Source: an uncultured bacterium
GTDB lineage: Bacteria > Planctomycetota > UBA1135 > GCA-002686595
Assembly: GCA_905480285.1 (NCBI GenBank)
Contig: CAJQPT010000095.1
Location: forward strand, 1 to 64,000
DNA: 64,000 nucleotides
Direction: 5' to 3'
Shown here: one piece after another, positions 52,990 to 62,252 of the stretch
Layout of the letters: each line of letters opens with the position of its first letter
Numbering within the stretch: position 1 is the first letter of the stretch
The notes under the pieces: generated by a model
Seen by the model: the letters and a program-made list of their open reading frames with translations, nothing else
Databases searched by the model: none
What the model was told of the DNA's origin: nothing
Program-made: the position numbers and the translations under genes

Positions 52990-54747
52990 ATGACCGGTCC
53001 CTCCCACACCGACGGCAGCCTCCAGGGGCTCTTTTCACCCAGCCAGGGAGGTGCCTCTGACGAGGAGACCCCCTCCGGCCTCGAGCCGCTGCTCGAAGAG
53101 AACCTCTGCACCCTCGTCGGGGATTCTGCCGGGGAGCAGCTCATCGAGCGCATCCTCTTCGCCGACAGCGGCAAGCACGTGATCATCGGTGGACCGAACC
53201 CGCCGCTCTACCGCTTCCGGGGCCGGCTGCGCGAGTTCCGCGTCCGGAAGAAGGAGCTCGAGGCGTCGGTCGCGGACGTCCAGGACGGTGAGACCGTCTT
53301 CCTGTTCGGCATCAGCCTCGGTGAACAGGCGGCGCACATCCTGCGCACACGACCCAACTGCAAGGTCATCGCCTGGGACCGAGACCCCTGGCTCATGCGG
53401 CTCGCCCTCACCGGCCAGGATTACAAGTACTCCCTGGGCACTGGGCGCCTGACGCTGGCCCTCGGCGCAGACCTCATCGACCACCTCCCCTCGATGCCCG
53501 GCTACCGGCTGGTGCTCCACCCGGTCCTGCGGGAGTTCTATGAGGACGAGCTGCTGCTCACCGAAGAGGCCACCCGCGGGGAACATCCCGGCGAGGAGCG
53601 ACGGTGGGTCGGCCTCGGCATGGGCGGCGTCGTCTACAACGAGCTGAGCGCAGCCGTTCGGGCCGAGGGGTACTCGGTGTTCCCCCTCGAGGTCCGCCGC
53701 TGGGACCCCCGTGAGACCCGAATCGCGCTGAAGACGCTGCGCCCCGAGCGCGTGGTCACCATCAACTACGACTCGGAGGTCGCGGCGGTCTGCCACGAGC
53801 TCGACGTCCCGCTCGTCGCGTGGGAGGTGGATCCCAAGACCGACCGCCCGCCCGTCCCGCCCGCCGGTGGCGAGGACTTCCGCGTCTTCTCGCTCCACCC
53901 CAAGGATGTGAGCCAACTCCAGCAGGCCGGCTTCTCCTCGGTGGACTACCTCCCCATCGGGGTCGACACGAACCGCCGCTTCCCCATCGAGCTCAGCGAG
54001 GAGGAGCGCAGCCGCTTCGCGGCCCGCGTCTGCTTCGTCGGCTCAAGCCTCATCGACCGGGCGCGACGCTTCAAGCGGCTGTTCCTTCAGCTGCACGCCT
54101 CCTTCAACTGCTCCGCCGACGAGAACTTCGATGAGACCTCCGAGCGGCTCGAGGGGGTCCTCGCCGGCGAGCGGGCCAACTACGGGGTCTATGACGCCGA
54201 TAACCTCCTCGAGGAGCAGTTCGGCGAGTTCCTCGAGGCGGCGCGGCGCAACGGGACGCCCGATGACCCGAAGAAGTGGGTCGCCGAGATCGTCGCGTCT
54301 CAGAAGCGAGTCGCCTACGTCTCAGCCCTGAGCGACTTCGGCATCCACGTCTGGGGGGATGAGCGCTGGAGCGAGGTCTCCGCCGCCGCCCCGGGCGTGC
54401 ACTACCGCGGCCTCGCCGAACAAGGTCACGAGCTGACCTGCGTCTACAGCGGCGCCGAGGTGCACGTGGACGTCAACCGGATCTACCAGCCCGAGGCCAT
54501 CCCCATGCGGGTGATCAACGTCATGGCCTGCGGCGGCTTCCTCATCGCAGAGCACTCTGACTCCATCGAGGAGCTGTTCGAGGTCGGTAAGGAGATCGAG
54601 ACCTATCGCACGATCGACGAGCTGGAGACCAAGGTCGCCCACTTCCTCGAACACCCCGGGGAAGCGCGGGAGATCGCGCAGCGCGGGCTCGACGCCGTGC
54701 GTCAACGTCACACCATGCGCATTCGAGCCGCGAGATTGCTCGCCTGA
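52990..54747 (+). CDS. Glycosyltransferase, CgeB/GT-B type
   Basis: The 585-residue product has an N-terminal Rossmann-like half with GKHVIIGGPNPPLYRF and ETVFLFGISLGEQAAHIL. The C-terminal GT-B half contains FRVFSLHPKDVSQLQQAGF, SVDYLPIGVDTNRRFP and CFVGSSLIDRARRF. The nucleotide-sugar-site segment IPMRVINVMACGGFLIAEHS is typical of CgeB-like enzymes, which decorate protein or spore surfaces. The first half also resembles the MAF/motility-accessory region. ATG 52990 leaves space for divergent promoters. ATG 52930, with AGGG four bases upstream, would add 20 residues and is a real alternative. No partner genes are adjacent. Confidence 0.78.
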   Translation: MTGPSHTDGSLQGLFSPSQGGASDEETPSGLEPLLEENLCTLVGDSAGEQLIERILFADSGKHVIIGGPNPPLYRFRGRLREFRVRKKELEASVADVQDGETVFLFGISLGEQAAHILRTRPNCKVIAWDRDPWLMRLALTGQDYKYSLGTGRLTLALGADLIDHLPSMPGYRLVLHPVLREFYEDELLLTEEATRGEHPGEERRWVGLGMGGVVYNELSAAVRAEGYSVFPLEVRRWDPRETRIALKTLRPERVVTINYDSEVAAVCHELDVPLVAWEVDPKTDRPPVPPAGGEDFRVFSLHPKDVSQLQQAGFSSVDYLPIGVDTNRRFPIELSEEERSRFAARVCFVGSSLIDRARRFKRLFLQLHASFNCSADENFDETSERLEGVLAGERANYGVYDADNLLEEQFGEFLEAARRNGTPDDPKKWVAEIVASQKRVAYVSALSDFGIHVWGDERWSEVSAAAPGVHYRGLAEQGHELTCVYSGAEVHVDVNRIYQPEAIPMRVINVMACGGFLIAEHSDSIEELFEVGKEIETYRTIDELETKVAHFLEHPGEAREIAQRGLDAVRQRHTMRIRAARLLA

Positions 54748-54786
54748 CGACGACCGACCTCCGCCAAGATTCTTCGGATCAACCGG

Positions 54787-54814
54787 TTGAATCCTCGCGC
54801 CGGCGCTCTACTCT
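54787..54814 (+). promoter_or_regulatory. Possible his operon promoter
   Basis: TTGAAT at 54787-54792 and TACTCT at 54809-54814 are 16 bases apart. The -35 match is fair and the -10 match weak. Transcription would start close to 54821, just before the leader ATG at 54825, implying a near-leaderless leader peptide. Confidence 0.35.
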
Positions 54815-54824
54815 CCTCGCTCGC

Positions 54825-54890
54825 ATGAACGCCTCGATCAGCAACGCGTCCGTCCATCATCACCACGACCCCTCCCGGGTCGGGTGCTGA
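54825..54890 (+). CDS. hisL: Histidine operon leader peptide
   Basis: A 22-codon frame including the stop encodes MNASISNASVHHHHDPSRVGC. Codons 11-14 (54855-54866) are four histidines, CAT CAT CAC CAC. It lies directly upstream of hisG and is followed by a terminator hairpin, the layout of ribosome-mediated attenuation. When charged His-tRNA is scarce, a ribosome stalled at these codons would favour the antiterminator fold. No Shine-Dalgarno sequence precedes the ATG, which fits a leaderless start. The frame is too short for domain evidence; the call rests on the His run, position and RNA structure. Confidence 0.8.
   Translation: MNASISNASVHHHHDPSRVGC
54866..54882 (+). promoter_or_regulatory. 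Pause-type hairpin of the his attenuator
   Basis: CGACCC (54866-54871) pairs with GGGTCG (54877-54882) around a five-base loop, starting in the last His codon. It corresponds to the 1:2 pause hairpin of amino-acid attenuators. A partly matching segment 54888-54892 (TGAGC) can pair with 54918-54922 (GCTCA) as part of a possible antiterminator. Confidence 0.55.
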
Positions 54891-54921
54891 GCACGCGTGT
54901 GACATAGACGTTCCACCGCTC

Positions 54922-54945
54922 AACGCCGGCCCACGGGCCGGCGTT
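54922..54945 (+). terminator. his attenuator terminator hairpin
   Basis: An 11-bp perfect stem AACGCCGGCCC/GGGCCGGCGTT (two-base apex, effectively a slightly larger loop) is followed by CTTCGTTG. It lies 32 bases after the leader peptide stop and 51 bases before hisG. Confidence 0.75.
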
Positions 54946-54995
54946 CTTCGTTGACGGCGGTTCGTGGGCTGGCCTCCCCCTACCTGGAAGCCGCC

Positions 54996-55916
54996 ATGAC
55001 CCTCGAACTCGACTCCATCCCCGGAGCCGCCGCCACACGCGTCGGCAGCGGGACACTCGCCCCCCTCCGGCTCGCGCTCCCCAAGGGACGCCAGCAAGAA
55101 CAGGTCATCCGCCTGCTCGCGGATGCCGGCGTCTCTGTGGCCATGGGCGGCCGCGCCTACCGGCCCACCGTCTCACTGCCTGCGGTTGAGACCAAGCTCC
55201 TGAAGCCGCAGAACGTCGTCGAGATGCTGGGCGTCGGGGCCCGCGATGTGGGCTTCGCCGGCGCCGACTGGGCCGAGGAGAAGGCCGCGCCGGTGGTCGA
55301 GCTCCTGGACACCAGGCTCAACCCCGTGCGGATCGTCGCCGCCGCGCCGCCCGCGCTCCTGGATGACGACGGCAACTTGCCTCGCCGCCCGCTGGTGATC
55401 GCCACGGAATACCGACGCTTGACCGAGGCCTGGATCCGCGACACGGGAATCGACGCCAGGGTGCTGTCCACCTGCGGCGCCACCGAGGTCTTCCCCCCCG
55501 AGGACGCCGACCTGATCGTGGACAACTCCTCCACGGGGTCGACCCTGCAGGCCAACGGCCTCGACGTGATCGCCGAGCTGTTCTCATCCTCGACCCGGCT
55601 CTACGCCAGCGAGGCCGCCGCCGCTGATCCCGGTCGCCGAGCGCGCCTGGACGAGCTGGTGATGCTCCTCCGCTCGGTGCTCGACGCTCGCCAACGCATG
55701 ATGCTCGAGCTCAACGTGGCCGCGGCGGACCTCGACGGGGTGCTCGACGTCCTCCCAAGCATGCGTCAGCCCACCATCGCCGCCCTGGGTGGCGAGGCCG
55801 GATTCGCCGTGCGCGCCGCGGTGCCCAGGGCGGCCATCGCCGACCTCGTCCCCCGACTGAAGCAGCTGGGCGGCAGCGACATTGTCCTCTCCGGCGTCAG
55901 CCAGCTGGTGCCCTGA
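54996..55916 (+). CDS. hisG: ATP phosphoribosyltransferase HisG, long form
   Basis: HisG catalyses the first step, joining ATP and PRPP. The 306 residues show RLALPKGRQQEQVIRLLADA at the N-terminus. The central VEMLGVGARDVGFAGADW and PRB-type PRPP loop DLIVDNSSTGSTLQANGL are present. The C-terminal regulatory domain (LPSMRQPTIAALGG to GASDIVLSGV-like end GGSDIVLSGVSQLVP) makes it a long-form enzyme that needs no HisZ and is normally feedback-inhibited by histidine. ATG 54996 has GGAAG five bases upstream; a TTG at 54951 sits in the terminator tail and is less likely. It overlaps hisC by one base. Confidence 0.93.
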   Translation: MTLELDSIPGAAATRVGSGTLAPLRLALPKGRQQEQVIRLLADAGVSVAMGGRAYRPTVSLPAVETKLLKPQNVVEMLGVGARDVGFAGADWAEEKAAPVVELLDTRLNPVRIVAAAPPALLDDDGNLPRRPLVIATEYRRLTEAWIRDTGIDARVLSTCGATEVFPPEDADLIVDNSSTGSTLQANGLDVIAELFSSSTRLYASEAAAADPGRRARLDELVMLLRSVLDARQRMMLELNVAAADLDGVLDVLPSMRQPTIAALGGEAGFAVRAAVPRAAIADLVPRLKQLGGSDIVLSGVSQLVP

Positions 55917-57658
55917 TGTCGCCCTCCACCCTCAGCGCCGCGAGCTCCCCCACCAGCACCAGGGGGCCCGAAGCCAACTCTGGTGTCCGGGTGCCCTACC
56001 GGGCCGCCCGGCCCCTCGCTCCGTGCGACCTCTGGCTCGCGGGAAATGAAGGGCGCCCGCCTGAAGCGATCGAGCTCCGCGTCCCCTCGGACGAGCTCGG
56101 CCGCTACCCGTCATCCGCCTCACTCGAGGCCGCAGCGGCGGAGCGCTTCGGGGTGGCACCGGACCAGGTCCTCGCGACCGCCGGAGCCGACGACGGGCTC
56201 CTGCGCCTGTGCCTCGCCTTCCTCGAGGCTGGCCGCGAGCTGATCCTCCCTGCTCCGACGTTCGAGATGATCCCCCGCTATGCGGCTCTCGCCGGCGGCG
56301 AGATCGTCGAGGTGAGCTGGGAGGAGGGGTCCTCGTACCCGGTGGAGGCCGTGCTGCGCTCGATCACCCCGCGCACCTCGCTCATCGCCGTGGTCAGCCC
56401 CAACAACCCCACCGGCGCGGTTGCCCGCCCGCAGGACCTCCAGCGTCTCTCCGAGGCGGCGCCGAACGCCCTCCTCATCGTCGACCAGGCCTACGCGGAG
56501 TTCGCCGACGAAGACCTCACGGCTCCGGCGCTCGAGCTCCCCAACGCCGTGGTGCTTCGCACCATGTCCAAGGCCTATGGCTGCGCCGGGCTCCGCGTGG
56601 GCTTCACCCTCGGCGCCCCGAGGATCCTCGAGCTCCTCCGCGCCGCAGGCAACCCCTACCCCCTGGCGGCGAGCTCGCTCAACGCCGCGACCCAGCGTCT
56701 CTCGGACGACATCAGTCCGTCCGTGCAGCGGGTCCGGCGAGAGCGCGACGCGCTCCTCGCGACGGCGCAAGAGCTCGGCCTCGAGGCGTCCCCCAGCCAG
56801 GGCAACTTCGTGTTCATCCGCACTCCACGCGCCTCCACGATCCGCGACCTGATGGCGGGCCTCGGGGTCGCCATCCGAGCGTTCCCAGGCGTCCCCGGGC
56901 TCACCGACGCGCTTCGGATCACGCTCCCCGGTGACAGCGTGAGCTTCACGCGACTGGATCGGGCGATCCGCTCAGTCCTGGCCCCCGACGCCCTCCTCTT
57001 CGACCTCGACGGAGTCCTCGCGGACGTCTCCAGCTCCTATCGGACCGCCATCCGCGAGACCGCGGCGACGTTCGGGGTCACGATCACCGACTCCGACGTT
57101 GCGGCGGCCAAGGCCGCAGGCGACGCCAATGACGACTGGCGCCTGACGTGGAGACTCCTGGTCGACCGGGGCGTTGAGTGTTCCCTCGAAGAGGTCACTC
57201 TTCGCTTCGAGGCGCTCTATCAGGGGACGTCGACGGCGCCCGGCCTCCGCGAAGAGGAGTCGTTGCTCCTGGACCGCGAGAGCCTCAGGCGCCTCGCCGC
57301 CGAGCGGCCGCTCGCGGTGGTCACAGGCCGACCCCGGTCAGACGCCCGGAGGTTCCTCGAGGAGCAGGGGATCGCCGACCTGTTTGGCGCGGTGATCACC
57401 CGGGATGACGCGCCGCTCAAGCCAGATCCCGAGCCGGTCCGCCGCGCCATGGACGCCCTCGGCGTGCGCACCGCCTGGATGATCGGCGACACGCGCGACG
57501 ACGTCGAGAGCGCGCGCGCAGCCGGCGCCGTGCCGGTCGCCGTCCTCCCTCCGGGCGGCAGCGACAGCGCCCGGAGCACCCTCAAGGCTCAGCTATGCGC
57601 AGCAGGCGCCGGCGTCTGCCTGGACCGTACCACCGAACTCGAGGAGCTCCTCCCGTGA
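55916..57658 (+). CDS. hisC: Histidinol-phosphate aminotransferase fused to HAD-superfamily phosphatase
   Basis: This is a 580-residue fusion. Residues about 30-355 form a class I/II aminotransferase of HisC type, with [20 protein letters not shown] and the PLP lysine in [16 protein letters not shown]. Residues about 358-580 form a HAD subfamily IA domain. Its motifs are [23 protein letters not shown] with Lys in PLKPDPEPV, and [12 protein letters not shown], all intact. The neighbouring hisB encodes only the dehydratase, so the HAD domain is the best candidate for histidinol-phosphate phosphatase. This would place two consecutive steps in one protein. It overlaps hisB by four bases. Confidence 0.9.
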
Positions 57659-58269
57659 CTGACACCCTGCCCATCGCCCGCGCCCCGCGGGTCACCAGCC
57701 GCCGCCGCGACACCGGCGAGACCTCGGTCGAGCTGCGCCTCAACCTCGACGGCACGGGCCGCGCCGAGGTCTCGACCGGGCTGCGTTTCCTGGACCACAT
57801 GCTCGACGCCCTCGCGCGTCACGCACGCCTCGACTTGACCCTCAAGTGCGAGGGGGACCTGGACGTCGACGACCACCACACCGTGGAGGACTGCGCCATC
57901 GTCCTCGGCGGCGCCCTGGATGAGCTGCTCGGAGAGCGGCGCGGGATCACCCGCTTCGGGAGCGCGTATGCGCCCCTCGACGAGGCCCTCGCACGGGTCG
58001 TCGTGGACCTCTCCGGTCGCCCATGGCCAGAGGTCGATCTCGGCCTCCGCCGCGAGCGCATCGGGGCCGTGGCGTGCGAGAACCTGACCCACTTCCTCCA
58101 GACCCTCGCCATCGAGGGCCGCATGGCCCTGCACGTCGACGTCCTCCGCGGCGCCAACGATCACCACCGCGCCGAGGCTGCCTTCAAGGCCCTCGCCCTC
58201 GCCCTGCGCGAGGCCTTCACCCGCGACGGCGCCGACGCCGTGCCCAGCACCAAGGGGGTGCTCTCATGA
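57655..58269 (+). CDS. hisB: Imidazoleglycerol-phosphate dehydratase (HisB, dehydratase only)
   Basis: The 204-residue monofunctional IGP dehydratase has the family metal motifs [31 protein letters not shown], and the second-repeat [23 protein letters not shown] 57655 is the start; it overlaps the hisC stop (GTGA) and has GAGGAG eight bases upstream. No N-terminal HAD phosphatase domain is present, unlike E. coli HisB, which fits the phosphatase being fused to HisC here. Overlap with hisH is four bases. Confidence 0.96.
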
Positions 58270-58904
58270 GACCTGAAGTTGTCCTCGTACGAACTGGCGT
58301 GGCGAATGTCGCGTCTGTCACCGCTGCCCTCCGGCGTCTTGGCGTCGAGCCGCGGCTCTCCGATGACCCGGGCGTGATCCGTGAGGCGGCCGCCGTCGTG
58401 CTCCCCGGCGTGGGTGCCTTCGGCGCCGGCATGGAGCGGCTCGACGCCGCCGGGCTCGTGACGCCGCTGCGCGCCCGGGTGGAGCGTGGCGAGCCGACCC
58501 TCGCGATCTGTCTCGGTGTTCAGCTCCTCGGCATCGAGAGCGAGGAGGAGCCCGGCGTCCCCGGCCTCGGCGTCGCGCCCGCGCGCACGCGCAGGCTCAT
58601 GGGTGCCCCTCGCCTCCCCCACTTCGGGTGGAACGAGGTGGCGCCGGACCCAGGCTGCACAATCATCCAGCCAGGGGAGGCGTACTTCGCCCACAGCTAC
58701 CGCCTCGACGACTCTGCGGCTCTGGCGGCGGAGGGTTGGGCCGTCGCTCGCTCGAACGAAGGCGAGCCCTTCGTGGCCGCCATCGAGCGCGGCGCCGTGC
58801 TCGGGTGCCAGTTCCACCCTGAGCTCTCGGGGGCCTTCGGGGCGGCGCTGCTCGAGCGCTGGCTCGAGCGCGCGGCGGTCGCCTGTGCCGGGGGGGTCGC
58901 CTGA
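58266..58904 (+). CDS. hisH: Imidazole glycerol phosphate synthase glutaminase subunit HisH
   Basis: The 212-residue class I glutamine amidotransferase supplies ammonia to HisF. The catalytic Cys is in [10 protein letters not shown], and the His/Glu pair is in [10 protein letters not shown]. The oxyanion segment is [14 protein letters not shown] 58266 overlaps hisB by four bases, and the stop overlaps the hisF start (TGATG). The upstream extension of the frame inside hisB is not homologous. Confidence 0.95.
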
Positions 58905-59704
58905 TGGTCCGCCTCAGAGTCATTCCATGCCTCGACGTGAAGGACGGCAGGGTCGTGAAGGGTGTCCGCTTCCAGGGCCTCCGCGATGCTGGTGACCCCG
59001 TGGAGCGCGCGGTCGCCTACGAGGAGTCCGGGGCCGACGAGCTCTGCCTGCTCGACGTCTCGGCCACCCGCGAGGGGCGGGCGAGCGCCGTGGAGACCGT
59101 ACGCGCCGTGCGCGCCGCGATCGGGATCCCGCTCACCGTCGGCGGCGGCGTACGGCGCGTCGAGGACGCCGCGCGGCTGCTCGACGCCGGCGCGGACAAG
59201 GTCGCGGTCAACACCGCCGCCCTCGAACGTCCAGAGCTCCTCTCCGAGATCAAGGCTCGCCTCGGTGCCCAGTGCACGATCCTCTCCCTGGACGCGGCGC
59301 GCCGCGGAGGAGCAGAGGACCCGGACAGCAGCCCGAGCTGGGAGGTGGTCGTCGCCGGAGGCACCCAGCGCACCGGGACCGACGCGATCCAGTGGGCGCG
59401 CCTCGCGGTGAGCCTCGGCGCCGGCGAGATCCTCGCCACCAGCTGGGACCGCGACGGGACAGGAGCGGGGTATGACGTCGAGCTCCTCCGCGCCCTGGCC
59501 GACGCCGTCCCCGTCCCGCTGATCGCCAGCGGCGGCGCCCGCACCACGGGCCACATGGAGACGGCCCTCGACGCCGGCGCGAGCGCCGTGCTCGCCGCCT
59601 CCATCTTCCACGACGGTTTGACGACCGTCAGCCAGGTCAAACTCGAGCTCGCCCGGTCCGGGCGCGATGTCCGCCTCCCCCTGTCTTCCCCCACTGCCCG
59701 ATGA
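58904..59704 (+). CDS. hisF: Imidazole glycerol phosphate synthase cyclase subunit HisF
   Basis: The 266-residue TIM barrel closes the imidazole ring, forming IGP and AICAR. Catalytic Asp11 is in RVIPCLDVKDGRVVKG, and the second Asp lies in CTILSLDAARRGG. Phosphate-binding loops are LTVGGGVR and LIASGGA. The protein is slightly longer than usual because of an insertion after SLDAARRGG (AEDPDSSPS). It is coupled to hisH and overlaps the hisA fusion gene by four bases. Confidence 0.96.
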   Translation: MVRLRVIPCLDVKDGRVVKGVRFQGLRDAGDPVERAVAYEESGADELCLLDVSATREGRASAVETVRAVRAAIGIPLTVGGGVRRVEDAARLLDAGADKVAVNTAALERPELLSEIKARLGAQCTILSLDAARRGGAEDPDSSPSWEVVVAGGTQRTGTDAIQWARLAVSLGAGEILATSWDRDGTGAGYDVELLRALADAVPVPLIASGGARTTGHMETALDAGASAVLAASIFHDGLTTVSQVKLELARSGRDVRLPLSSPTAR

Positions 59705-60972
59705 TCATCCCCAGCATTGACCTCATGCGAGGCTCCACGGTCCAGCTCGTCGGCGGCGAGGAGCTCGCCATCGAGGCGGGCGACCCTCGCCCGCTCCTGG
59801 AGCGCTTCAGCCGCGTCGGCGAGACGGCCGTCATCGACCTCGATGCCGCCACGGGCGAGGGCTCCAACGAGGCGCTCATCACGGAGCTCTGTCGGCGCGG
59901 ACCCGTCCGCGTTGGCGGCGGCATCCGGGATCTTGCGACCGCCCGTCGCTGGCTCGACCGTGGCGCAGCGAAGATCATCATCGGCACCGCGGCGGACCCC
60001 GTCCTCCTGCGAGAGCTGCCCAGGGAGCGGGTCATCGTCGCCCTCGATTCGCGCGATGGCGAGGTCGTGGTGGAGGGCTGGCGCAAGCCGACCGGCCGCG
60101 GCGTCGAGGAGCGGATGGCCGAACTGGCGCCGTTCGTCGCGGGGTTCCTGGTGACCTTTGTGGAGCTCGAGGGGCGCCTCGGCGGTACCGCGATCGACCG
60201 CGTCCGCGGGCTCGTCGAGGCCGCCGGCACCGCGCGCGTCACGGTCGCTGGAGGCGTCACACGGAGCGAGGAGGTCGCGGCGCTGGATGCCATGGGCGCG
60301 GACGCCCAGGTCGGCATGGCGCTCTACACGGGCGCCCTCCCTCTGGTGGACGCCTTCTCCGCGCCGCTCGTCTCGGAGCGATCTGACGGGCTCATCGCCA
60401 CCGTGGTCACCGACGAGGCGGGCCGCGCACTCGGGATGTGCTGGTCCAGCCGGCGGAGCCTGGAGTACGCGCTCGAGAACGGGGTCGGCGCCTATGAGAG
60501 CCGCCGCCGTGGCCTCTGGGTCAAAGGCGCCACCTCGGGCGCCACCCAAGAGCTGATCCGGATCGAGGCCGACTGCGACCGGGACGCACTGCGCTTCGTG
60601 GTCCGCCAGGCGGGCGCCGGGTTCTGCCACCTGGACACCGAGAGCTGCTGGGGCCCGGCCACGGGGCTGCGCGCCCTGGAGCAGACTCTGGAGCGGCGCC
60701 GTGCCACGGCCGAGGCCGGCTCCTACAGCCAGCGGCTCTTCGGGGACGCGGAGCTGCTCGGCGCCAAGCTCCGCGAAGAGGCTGCCGAACTCGCGGAGGC
60801 CACAGGTCCCGACGAGGTGGTGCATGAGGCCGCCGACGTCCTCTTCTTTGCCTCCGTCGCGATGTCCCGCGCGGGCGTCACACTCTCGGACGTGGAGCGT
60901 GAACTCGACCGTCGAGCCGCCGCTGTCACCCGCCGGGCCGGCGACGCCAAGCCGGAGGTCGAACGCTCATGA
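59701..60972 (+). CDS. HisA-HisI-HisE triple-domain fusion protein
   Basis: The 423 residues carry three pathway enzymes. HisA (1-225), the ProFAR isomerase barrel, has catalytic Asp7 in PSIDLMRG and Asp116 in VALDSRDG, with phosphate loops RVGGGIRD and TVAGGVTR. HisI (about 227-320), the cyclohydrolase, has DCDRD (291-295) and probable zinc cysteines 292, 309 and 316 in GFCHLDTESCWG. HisE (about 325-410), the pyrophosphohydrolase, has KLREEAAELAEA and HEAADVLFF. The HisI-HisE part and its tail VTRRAGDAKP resemble the eukaryotic HIS4 protein more than ordinary bacterial HisIE. It overlaps hisF by four bases and hisD by four. Confidence 0.92.
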   Translation: MIIPSIDLMRGSTVQLVGGEELAIEAGDPRPLLERFSRVGETAVIDLDAATGEGSNEALITELCRRGPVRVGGGIRDLATARRWLDRGAAKIIIGTAADPVLLRELPRERVIVALDSRDGEVVVEGWRKPTGRGVEERMAELAPFVAGFLVTFVELEGRLGGTAIDRVRGLVEAAGTARVTVAGGVTRSEEVAALDAMGADAQVGMALYTGALPLVDAFSAPLVSERSDGLIATVVTDEAGRALGMCWSSRRSLEYALENGVGAYESRRRGLWVKGATSGATQELIRIEADCDRDALRFVVRQAGAGFCHLDTESCWGPATGLRALEQTLERRRATAEAGSYSQRLFGDAELLGAKLREEAAELAEATGPDEVVHEAADVLFFASVAMSRAGVTLSDVERELDRRAAAVTRRAGDAKPEVERS

Positions 60973-62252
60973 GCACCTCCATCCGTGAGACTCCCCTGCT
61001 GCGGGAGATCACCCTCGATCAGATCGAGGCCTCGGCGCCCAGCGCGGTGGACGAGGTCACCCGTGTCACAGCGAGGTCCATCGTCGACTCCGTCCGCACC
61101 GGCGGCGAGGCTGTGCTCCGTGAGTACACCACCGGGCTGGATGGCCTCTCGCCGTCCGCGCCACTCGTGCTCGATCGCGCGGCCCTGGAACGCGCCGCCG
61201 AGGGGCTCAGCGCTTCTACCCGGCAGCTCCTCGAGAGGACCGCGGAGCGGATCCGCGCCTTCGCCACGGCTCAGCGGGATGCGCTCTCACCGCTTGACGT
61301 GGCGGTCCCCGGAGGGCGCGCAGGACACGAAGTCGTGCCGATCGAGGCGGCTGGTTGCTACGCACCTGGAGGTCGCTACCCGCTCCCCTCCTCCGTGCTC
61401 ATGACAGCCGTGACCGCCAAGGCCGCAGGGGTGGAGCGGGTCGTGGTGGCGTCGCCCAACCCCAAGCCAATCGTGGTCGCAGCCGCCGCGATCGCGGGGG
61501 CCGACTGCCTGTTGACGGCGGGCGGGGCCCAAGCCATCGCCGCCCTCGCGCACGGCATCCCGGGGCTCCTTGATCCCGTGGACGTCATCGTCGGGCCGGG
61601 CAACCGTTGGGTCACCGCCGCCAAGCAGTACGTCTTCGGCGACGTGGGGATCGACCTCCCCGCCGGCCCCTCCGAGCTGGTGGTTCTCGCCGACGCCTCT
61701 GCGGACCCCGAGCTCGTCGCAGCCGACCTGCTCGCCCAGGCGGAGCACGACCCTGACGCGAGGCCCGCCCTCATCACCACAGAGGCCGGACTCCTGCCCG
61801 AAGTCGAGGCGGCGCTCGGTCGTCAGCTCGCATCGCTGGACACCAAGGAGGTCGCCTCGCAGGCGCTCGCCGCGGGCTTCGCTGCGGTGGCGCCCTCCAT
61901 GGAGGCGGCGCTCGAGGCCGTGGACCGGCTCGCTCCCGAGCACCTCCAGCTATGCGTGGAAGACCCCGACGGCGCGAGGCGTCGCCTCAAGCACCACGGA
62001 GCCTCGTTCCTGGGCGAGGGCTCGGCGGAGGTCTTCGGCGACTACGGTGTCGGCCCGAACCACGTCCTCCCCACCGGCGGAGCCGCTCGCTACTCGGGGG
62101 GCCTCTCGGTCTTCAACTTCTTGCGGATCAGGACCTGGCTGCGCCTCGACGACCCGTCGCTGGTGGCGGGAGACGTCGAGGCCCTTGCCAGGGAGGAGCG
62201 GTTGACGGCCCACGCTCGGGCCGCCGCCGCGCGGGTCAGGGCACCAGGGTGA
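60969..62252 (+). CDS. hisD: Histidinol dehydrogenase HisD
   Basis: HisD catalyses the last two oxidations from histidinol to histidine using NAD+. The 427 residues contain GCYAPGGRYPLPSSVLMTA, the NAD/substrate region VDVIVGPGNRWVTAAKQYVF, the zinc segment QAEHDPDA, and the catalytic Glu-His of APEHLQL and GPNHVLPTGGAARYSGGLSV. Length is normal. It is last in the operon and overlaps the HisA-I-E gene by four bases. Its 3' end overlaps the convergent secreted-protein gene by 17 bp. Confidence 0.96.
   Translation: MSTSIRETPLLREITLDQIEASAPSAVDEVTRVTARSIVDSVRTGGEAVLREYTTGLDGLSPSAPLVLDRAALERAAEGLSASTRQLLERTAERIRAFATAQRDALSPLDVAVPGGRAGHEVVPIEAAGCYAPGGRYPLPSSVLMTAVTAKAAGVERVVVASPNPKPIVVAAAAIAGADCLLTAGGAQAIAALAHGIPGLLDPVDVIVGPGNRWVTAAKQYVFGDVGIDLPAGPSELVVLADASADPELVAADLLAQAEHDPDARPALITTEAGLLPEVEAALGRQLASLDTKEVASQALAAGFAAVAPSMEAALEAVDRLAPEHLQLCVEDPDGARRRLKHHGASFLGEGSAEVFGDYGVGPNHVLPTGGAARYSGGLSVFNFLRIRTWLRLDDPSLVAGDVEALAREERLTAHARAAAARVRAPG

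Follow-up and report, generated by a model that had tools for sequence, protein, structure and literature searches.

The window, as we call the whole stretch of 64,000 nucleotides that was analysed, belongs to a 4.5 Mb assembly that is 84% complete. A short frame with a run of histidine codons lies between a glycosyltransferase-like gene, which ends at 54747, and a seven-gene his operon whose genes overlap or are tightly packed (Table 1). The HisG protein of the window is 87-92% identical to those of the four closest loci (L002-L005) and 71% identical to that of Planctomycetes bacterium Poly30 (G007), which is assigned to the same genus as the window genome and which we take to be Saltatorellus ferox, a species listed by NCBI in Planctomycetota. 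In the alignment, the ATG start of hisG corresponds to ATG or GTG in close relatives. Two of the operon's genes are fusions, one of HisC with a HAD hydrolase that is possibly a histidinol-phosphatase (55916-57658), and one of HisA, HisI and HisE (59701-60972). The histidine pathway is patchy among genomes of the same family or order (hisG in 17 of 61, hisD in 20 of 61); both genes are present in all nine genomes of the window's genus.

Table 1. Features of the leader region and the his operon, with positions counted from the first letter of the window
Feature	Position	Strand	Basis or remark
-35-like hexamer TTGAAT	54787..54792	+	best promoter-like pair by script, 16-nt spacer
-10-like hexamer TACTCT, 10 nt before the ATG	54809..54814	+	same promoter-like pair
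Leader ORF MNASISNASVHHHHDPSRVGC, 21 codons, without Shine-Dalgarno sequence	54825..54890	+	sequence; ATG 54825-54827, TGA 54888-54890
Four His codons CAT CAT CAC CAC, putative regulatory codons	54855..54866	+	sequence
Hairpin 1:2, anchored on His codons 3-4	54861..54886	+	folding; 54861-54871 with 54877-54886
Antiterminator, 5' part: GGGTCG (54877-54882) and GCGT (54895-54898)	54877..54898	+	pairs with ACGCCGGCCC, 54923-54932
Terminator hairpin 3:4, AACGCCGGCC-CACG-GGCCGGCGTT, then CTTCGTTG	54922..54945	+	folding; 54922-54931 with 54936-54945, 10 bp
Small hairpin GGCcTCC...GGAaGCC across the hisG ribosome-binding site	54971..54992	+	similar in close relatives
hisG, first gene under the proposed control	54996..55916 (start approximate)	+	PF01634 and PF08029
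Rest of the his operon: hisC-HAD, hisB, hisH, hisF, hisA-hisI-hisE, hisD	55916..62252	+	

The original prediction had described a 21-residue frame with four consecutive His codons ahead of hisG, and this frame can be read directly in the sequence. A run of three or four His codons is present in all nine sequences from the genus, the exceptions to the full run being a Phe as the fourth codon in L003 and a Leu as the third in L008. The variable columns of the five closest sequences show no codon periodicity (5, 5 and 4 by codon position), so that the coding case for the leader rests on the His run and not on codon statistics.

The RNA between 54818 and 54960 folds with an energy z of -2.54, and only two of 200 shuffled sequences fold equally well. 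The pause-type hairpin that had been predicted is present, but it begins in the third His codon rather than in the last. Likewise, a terminator does precede hisG, but with a stem of 10 bp and a CACG loop instead of the 11 bp originally proposed, because an eleventh pair would leave a loop of only 2 nt. All parts of a his attenuator, with a putative terminator, are in place. When the RNA is folded state by state, the expected mutually exclusive folds appear as alternatives that depend on the ribosome: with a ribosome on the His codons, the nascent RNA up to segment 3 forms the antiterminator (-26.3 kcal/mol); without a ribosome, it forms hairpin 1:2; and once the ribosome is at the stop, the terminator alone is formed. 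In the minimum free energy (MFE) fold with the ribosome stalled on His codons, the antiterminator has UGAGC/GCUCA as its inner pairs and not GCGU/ACGC; since this inner pairing varies, the outer GGGUCGG/CCGGCCC helix is the firm part. When the full-length RNA is folded with the His codons masked, the terminator has an MFE of -33.5 to -34.5, compared with -26.1 to -26.3 for the antiterminator. The terminator is therefore favoured at equilibrium, which means that the antiterminator must form first and persist, and that antitermination would be kinetic.

Within the genus, an alignment of nine sequences (A1) shows that the leader with its three or four His codons is kept, as are the GCGT and ACGCC motifs. 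Of the 90 alignment cells for each helix, 97.8% are paired in the antiterminator and 96.7% in the terminator, the latter with two doubly compensated pairs, whereas controls in which the helices were slid along the alignment are paired in at most 47%. Segment 3 is common to antiterminator and terminator, and both of its partners follow its changes: columns 54, 118 and 127 read either G, C and G or A, U and A, and columns 56, 116 and 129 also covary. In L007 and L009, G-C and C-G are replaced by A-U and U-A in the two helices. In L003, two pairs of the terminator are disrupted at its loop end. In an alignment of only nine rows, the numbers of pairs changed on both sides do not by themselves exceed what shuffling yields, being reached in 220 of 500 shuffles for the antiterminator and in 175 of 500 for the terminator.

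Beyond the genus, we defined a leader as a frame of 9-45 codons, with at least four His in seven residues, no more than 400 nt upstream of hisG. From 92 loci, 13 repeats on the same contig and two loci with less than 250 nt upstream (L062, L079) were dropped, leaving 58 related loci (HisG at least 53% identical) and 19 with more distant HisG. Such a frame precedes hisG in 43 of the 58 related loci, or in 48 if at least three His suffice. The reverse complements of the same regions contain none with at least four His and one with at least three (of 58); for 461 stretches of 400 nt taken elsewhere in these loci, the numbers are none and five. Among the more distant loci, three of 19 have a His-rich leader, and in five of the 58 related loci (L011, L029, L038, L066, L069) no leader was found upstream of hisG. 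The hosts that carry a name belong to Planctomycetota, Gemmatimonadota, Armatimonadota and Spirochaetota, together with one MAG labelled Proteobacteria. In a HisG tree built rapidly from 68 rows, with modest supports and an arbitrary root, the leader takes 10 changes if all leaders of mixed composition (see below) but one are scored as absent. Rows from Gemmatimonadota branch from within those of Planctomycetota, which suggests that his operon and attenuator moved together between phyla.

The His codons and hairpins are also conserved in this wider comparison, as one would expect of a genuine attenuator. Among 51 leaders, 44 have a terminator-like hairpin 3' of the stop codon, most of them with ACGCCGGC...GCCGGCGT, and seven have none even under a looser rule for hairpins after the stop codon. 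In 48 of the 51, MFE folds, computed for the natural sequences only, place 4 nt or more of the His codons in base pairs, and by eye the stop-codon region of several relatives resembles GTGATGGTG, which is complementary to the His-codon sequence CACCATCAC. For a second alignment (A2) we selected 31 of 42 listed references ourselves. It leaves out the near-duplicate L005 and ten sequences from other phyla or with another terminator sequence or spacing (L010, L015, L017, L021, L031, L033, L035, L036, L037, L045); L006 and L014 had been excluded beforehand, their hairpins lying more than 45 nt from the stop codon. The GGGTCGG antiterminator helix is paired in 87.1% of 217 cells of these 31 sequences, compared with 26-61% for slid versions; as the selection favours the reported helix, the figure holds for that subset. 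Its covariation score of 0.216 was reached by none of 500 shuffles. Across 44 loci, the antiterminator energy has a median z of -2.2 relative to shuffles, with z below -1 in 32. The number of terminator-arm bases paired upstream lies above that of 90% of shuffles in only four of the 44.

The terminator stem alone, taken from A2 as a covariance model (R1), served as a prediction test. Of 294 Planctomycetota genomes, 34 contain a match at E<=0.01. Each of the 16 top-scoring loci (E<=3.4e-7) precedes hisG and has a His-rich frame; 13 of them are training sequences and three are new (G254, G315, G305). Of 14 weaker loci (L145-L158), 13 are without hisG, and the one that precedes hisG is a training sequence. 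L145 was considered as a leader, since it has His- and Arg-rich codons; these are part of a longer frame, and we set it down as chance. In the genomes behind 18 loci, R1 finds a match at the position of the leader in nine (positions compared by hand) and four matches elsewhere, one of which is a thrS leader; it missed six genomes that have a leader frame (those behind L015, L017, L019, L021, L033 and L037).

The original prediction had also noted the missing Shine-Dalgarno sequence and suggested that the frame may be leaderless; it would have been contradicted by a transcript start downstream of 54870. The start that we predict from the promoter-like pair, at about 54821, lies just upstream of the ATG, and the position of promoters across phyla agrees with this idea. 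In the 51 leaders, whose start codons we picked from scanned frames, a -35-like hexamer is mostly found at -34 to -41, the -10-like hexamer mostly ends 6-10 nt before the start codon, and a Shine-Dalgarno-like motif at -18 to -4 is present in only four. Counting promoters with at least 8 of 12 matches and a -10 box ending 6-11 nt upstream of the start codon, we find one in 31 of the 51, compared with a mean of 1.0 and a maximum of 5 in 500 rounds of mononucleotide shuffling. Transcription generally starts about 7 nt after a -10 box, which would leave a 5' leader of 0-4 nt. Because the promoter is so near the start codon in 31 of 51 cases, the frame is probably leaderless. Alternatively, the attenuator could be transcribed from farther upstream, with the frame translated by initiation that does not depend on a Shine-Dalgarno sequence, much as the accessible text of PMC10272879 cites a Corynebacterium glutamicum ilvBNC leader peptide without ribosome binding site. 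In the window, the start site is only predicted, the -35 and -10 hexamers are weak (7 of 12 matches, below threshold) and a simple promoter and terminator scanner picked up neither element in the leader region. The window is accordingly among the 20 of 51 leaders that were not counted as having a promoter at the expected distance. However, the excess of 31 over 1.0 expected occurs at the one distance that a leaderless start predicts, and in several phyla, which makes the more distant start rather improbable.

A different question is whether the hairpins end transcription by themselves. They might instead govern translation of hisG through access to its ribosome-binding site, or act via Rho. 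The tail of the window's terminator (CTTCGTTG) is T-poor, with a weak T tract, and some leaders have no T-tailed hairpin. Moreover, members of the genus have a second, small hairpin across the ribosome-binding site of hisG; in L007-L009 it is built from other letters, by eye GGCTTTCC/GGAGAGCC or GGCTCTC/GAGAGCC, and it may add translational control. Yet 50 nt separate the end of the terminator from the hisG ATG, so that the start stays uncovered, and strong T tails are found in many relatives, such as TTTTTT in L024 and L037. On balance, we consider control of translation or via Rho in place of intrinsic termination quite unlikely.

Leaders of other composition occupy the same place in some genomes. 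Five of the ten related loci without a His-rich leader (L020, L023, L025, L030, L041) have a His/Tyr/Phe leader there, as do the more distant L039, L040 and L042; these leaders, such as MTNTHPFFGHYYYHRVRGGR, retain GGCCGG and the terminator. In Palauibacter and its kin (Gemmatimonadota; L020, L023, L025, L030, L031, L039-L042) the mixed runs read FFGHYYYH, YFGHHYYH or FYGHYFYH. The operon behind the mixed leader in L160 is an ordinary one, with hisG, hisC, hisB, hisH, hisF and, in one long frame, what look like hisA-IE and hisD. The mixed leader may be an attenuator responding to several aromatic amino acids, or one in the course of changing its specificity.

Similar leaders precede other genes. 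The extra R1 match in the L010 genome (L163, around position 483) is MNAHLASTTATTTTAGRAGG before thrS, where a GTG start codon closely follows TATACT and a terminator-like hairpin is present. Seven of 50 thrS upstream regions contain a Thr run by our rule, and four of these are alike (L196, L199, L209, L210), with MARPVLLTTTTTTTPANRPRG, MPRPTTTTTTTTETRPRG and others, and with -10-like boxes just before the start; L183, L187 and L193 also have a Thr run by this rule and were not counted as thrS leaders. Some Planctomycetota thus have Thr-run leaders before thrS that are apparently leaderless and come with terminator-like hairpins. In the window's genus, five of 12 trpE loci (L093-L096, L103) have a leader of the SWSWRWWPxGPGCSxG type or NWWWWCASEARRG, and one of 12 leuA loci (L106) has a convincing Leu-rich leader; terminator-like hairpins lie downstream of these trpE and leuA leaders. 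No leader was found in any of six ilvB loci scanned, nor, by the same rules, before the window genome's own trpE (L102) and thrS (L201).

Runs of histidine can bind metals, and a small His-rich peptide could in principle act as a protein in its own right, without any attenuation. The leader peptides share little across relatives beyond the His run, however, and the frame goes together with hisG and with covarying, mutually exclusive helices; moreover, related leaders have Thr before thrS and Trp before trpE. A function of the peptide as such therefore seems highly improbable. We lean slightly towards the broader idea that a single layout serves his (with His runs), thrS (with Thr runs) and perhaps trp, that it moves with the his operon between phyla, and that the Palauibacter type (e.g. 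FFGHYYYH) has been retuned from His to His/Tyr/Phe.

An Rfam scan of the whole 64-kb window gave nothing at gathering score, and at E<=10 the region 54700-55100 has chance-level matches only, the best to STnc390 at 0.093 and none to RF00514. As described in the accessible part of PMC9413887, the enterobacterial His leader (hisL, RF00514) shares with our leader a His run in a short frame, alternative hairpins and a terminator before the his operon. It differs in that here three helices share segments, a Shine-Dalgarno sequence is lacking, the start codon lies at the promoter, and the operon begins hisG-hisC-HAD and contains a hisA-I-E fusion. The original prediction placed such an attenuator outside Proteobacteria. 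This is correct for the host but not unprecedented, since the accessible parts of two papers report predicted his attenuators with three to five consecutive His codons in Firmicutes (Bacillus cereus group, Peptostreptococcaceae, Erysipelotrichales; PMC9413887) and His leaders of hisZ and hisS in bacilli (PMC2965389). Like ours, these non-proteobacterial leaders combine a His-rich frame with a terminator and antiterminator upstream of his genes; they belong to other phyla and the accessible text does not mention a leaderless start, a distinction drawn from descriptions rather than sequences.

The leaderless start also has a counterpart. In Sinorhizobium meliloti, the 5' end of the trpL RNA (rnTrpL/peTrpL) coincides with the leader ATG, according to the accessible part of PMC7298713. 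That attenuator has a leaderless frame, as ours is predicted to have from the promoter position, but it concerns Trp and trpE(G) in an alphaproteobacterium. Mycobacterial cysteine-rich leader frames, from hosts rich in leaderless transcripts (accessible parts of PMC4633059 and PMC1262725), resemble ours in having a run of one amino acid; they differ in that they concern cysteine and actinobacteria and have no obvious terminator (PMC1262725). The accessible text of PMC4833913 counts leader genes in Planctomycetes and names no his attenuator there. None of the accessible literature that we searched reports a his attenuator for Planctomycetota, though a census cited in PMC4833913 (Lopatovskaya et al. 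2010, Mol. Biol. 44:128) may hold some. In this literature, each of the two features has thus been published on its own, the his attenuator beyond Proteobacteria for Firmicutes and the leaderless leader peptide for Sinorhizobium trpL. What appears to be new here is a widespread form of his attenuator with a predicted leaderless start, in several phyla.

Together, the sequences lead us to predict, with high confidence, a genuine his attenuator, in which transcription of the his operon would be controlled by histidine through ribosome-mediated attenuation. The signal would be charged histidyl-tRNA. RNA polymerase would start a few bases from the leader ATG, so that a ribosome would load at the transcript's very beginning and need no Shine-Dalgarno sequence. 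Under a shortage of His-tRNA, this ribosome would stall at the His codons and block hairpin 1:2; segment 2 (GGGTCGG with its downstream pairs) would then capture the terminator 5' arm CCGGCCC and allow read-through into hisG. With ample His-tRNA, translation would proceed to the stop codon, where the ribosome would cover segment 2, and the terminator would halt transcription before hisG. Without any ribosome, segment 2 would be held in hairpin 1:2 and the terminator would form as well.

The predicted attenuator would extend classical attenuation to phyla for which we found no his attenuator report in the literature searched. It suggests that the sensing ribosome can begin at the bare 5' end of an RNA; if the frame is indeed leaderless, conditions that favour leaderless initiation should shift the set point of attenuation. 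The His/Tyr/Phe leaders form a natural series in which to study how an attenuator changes its amino-acid specificity.
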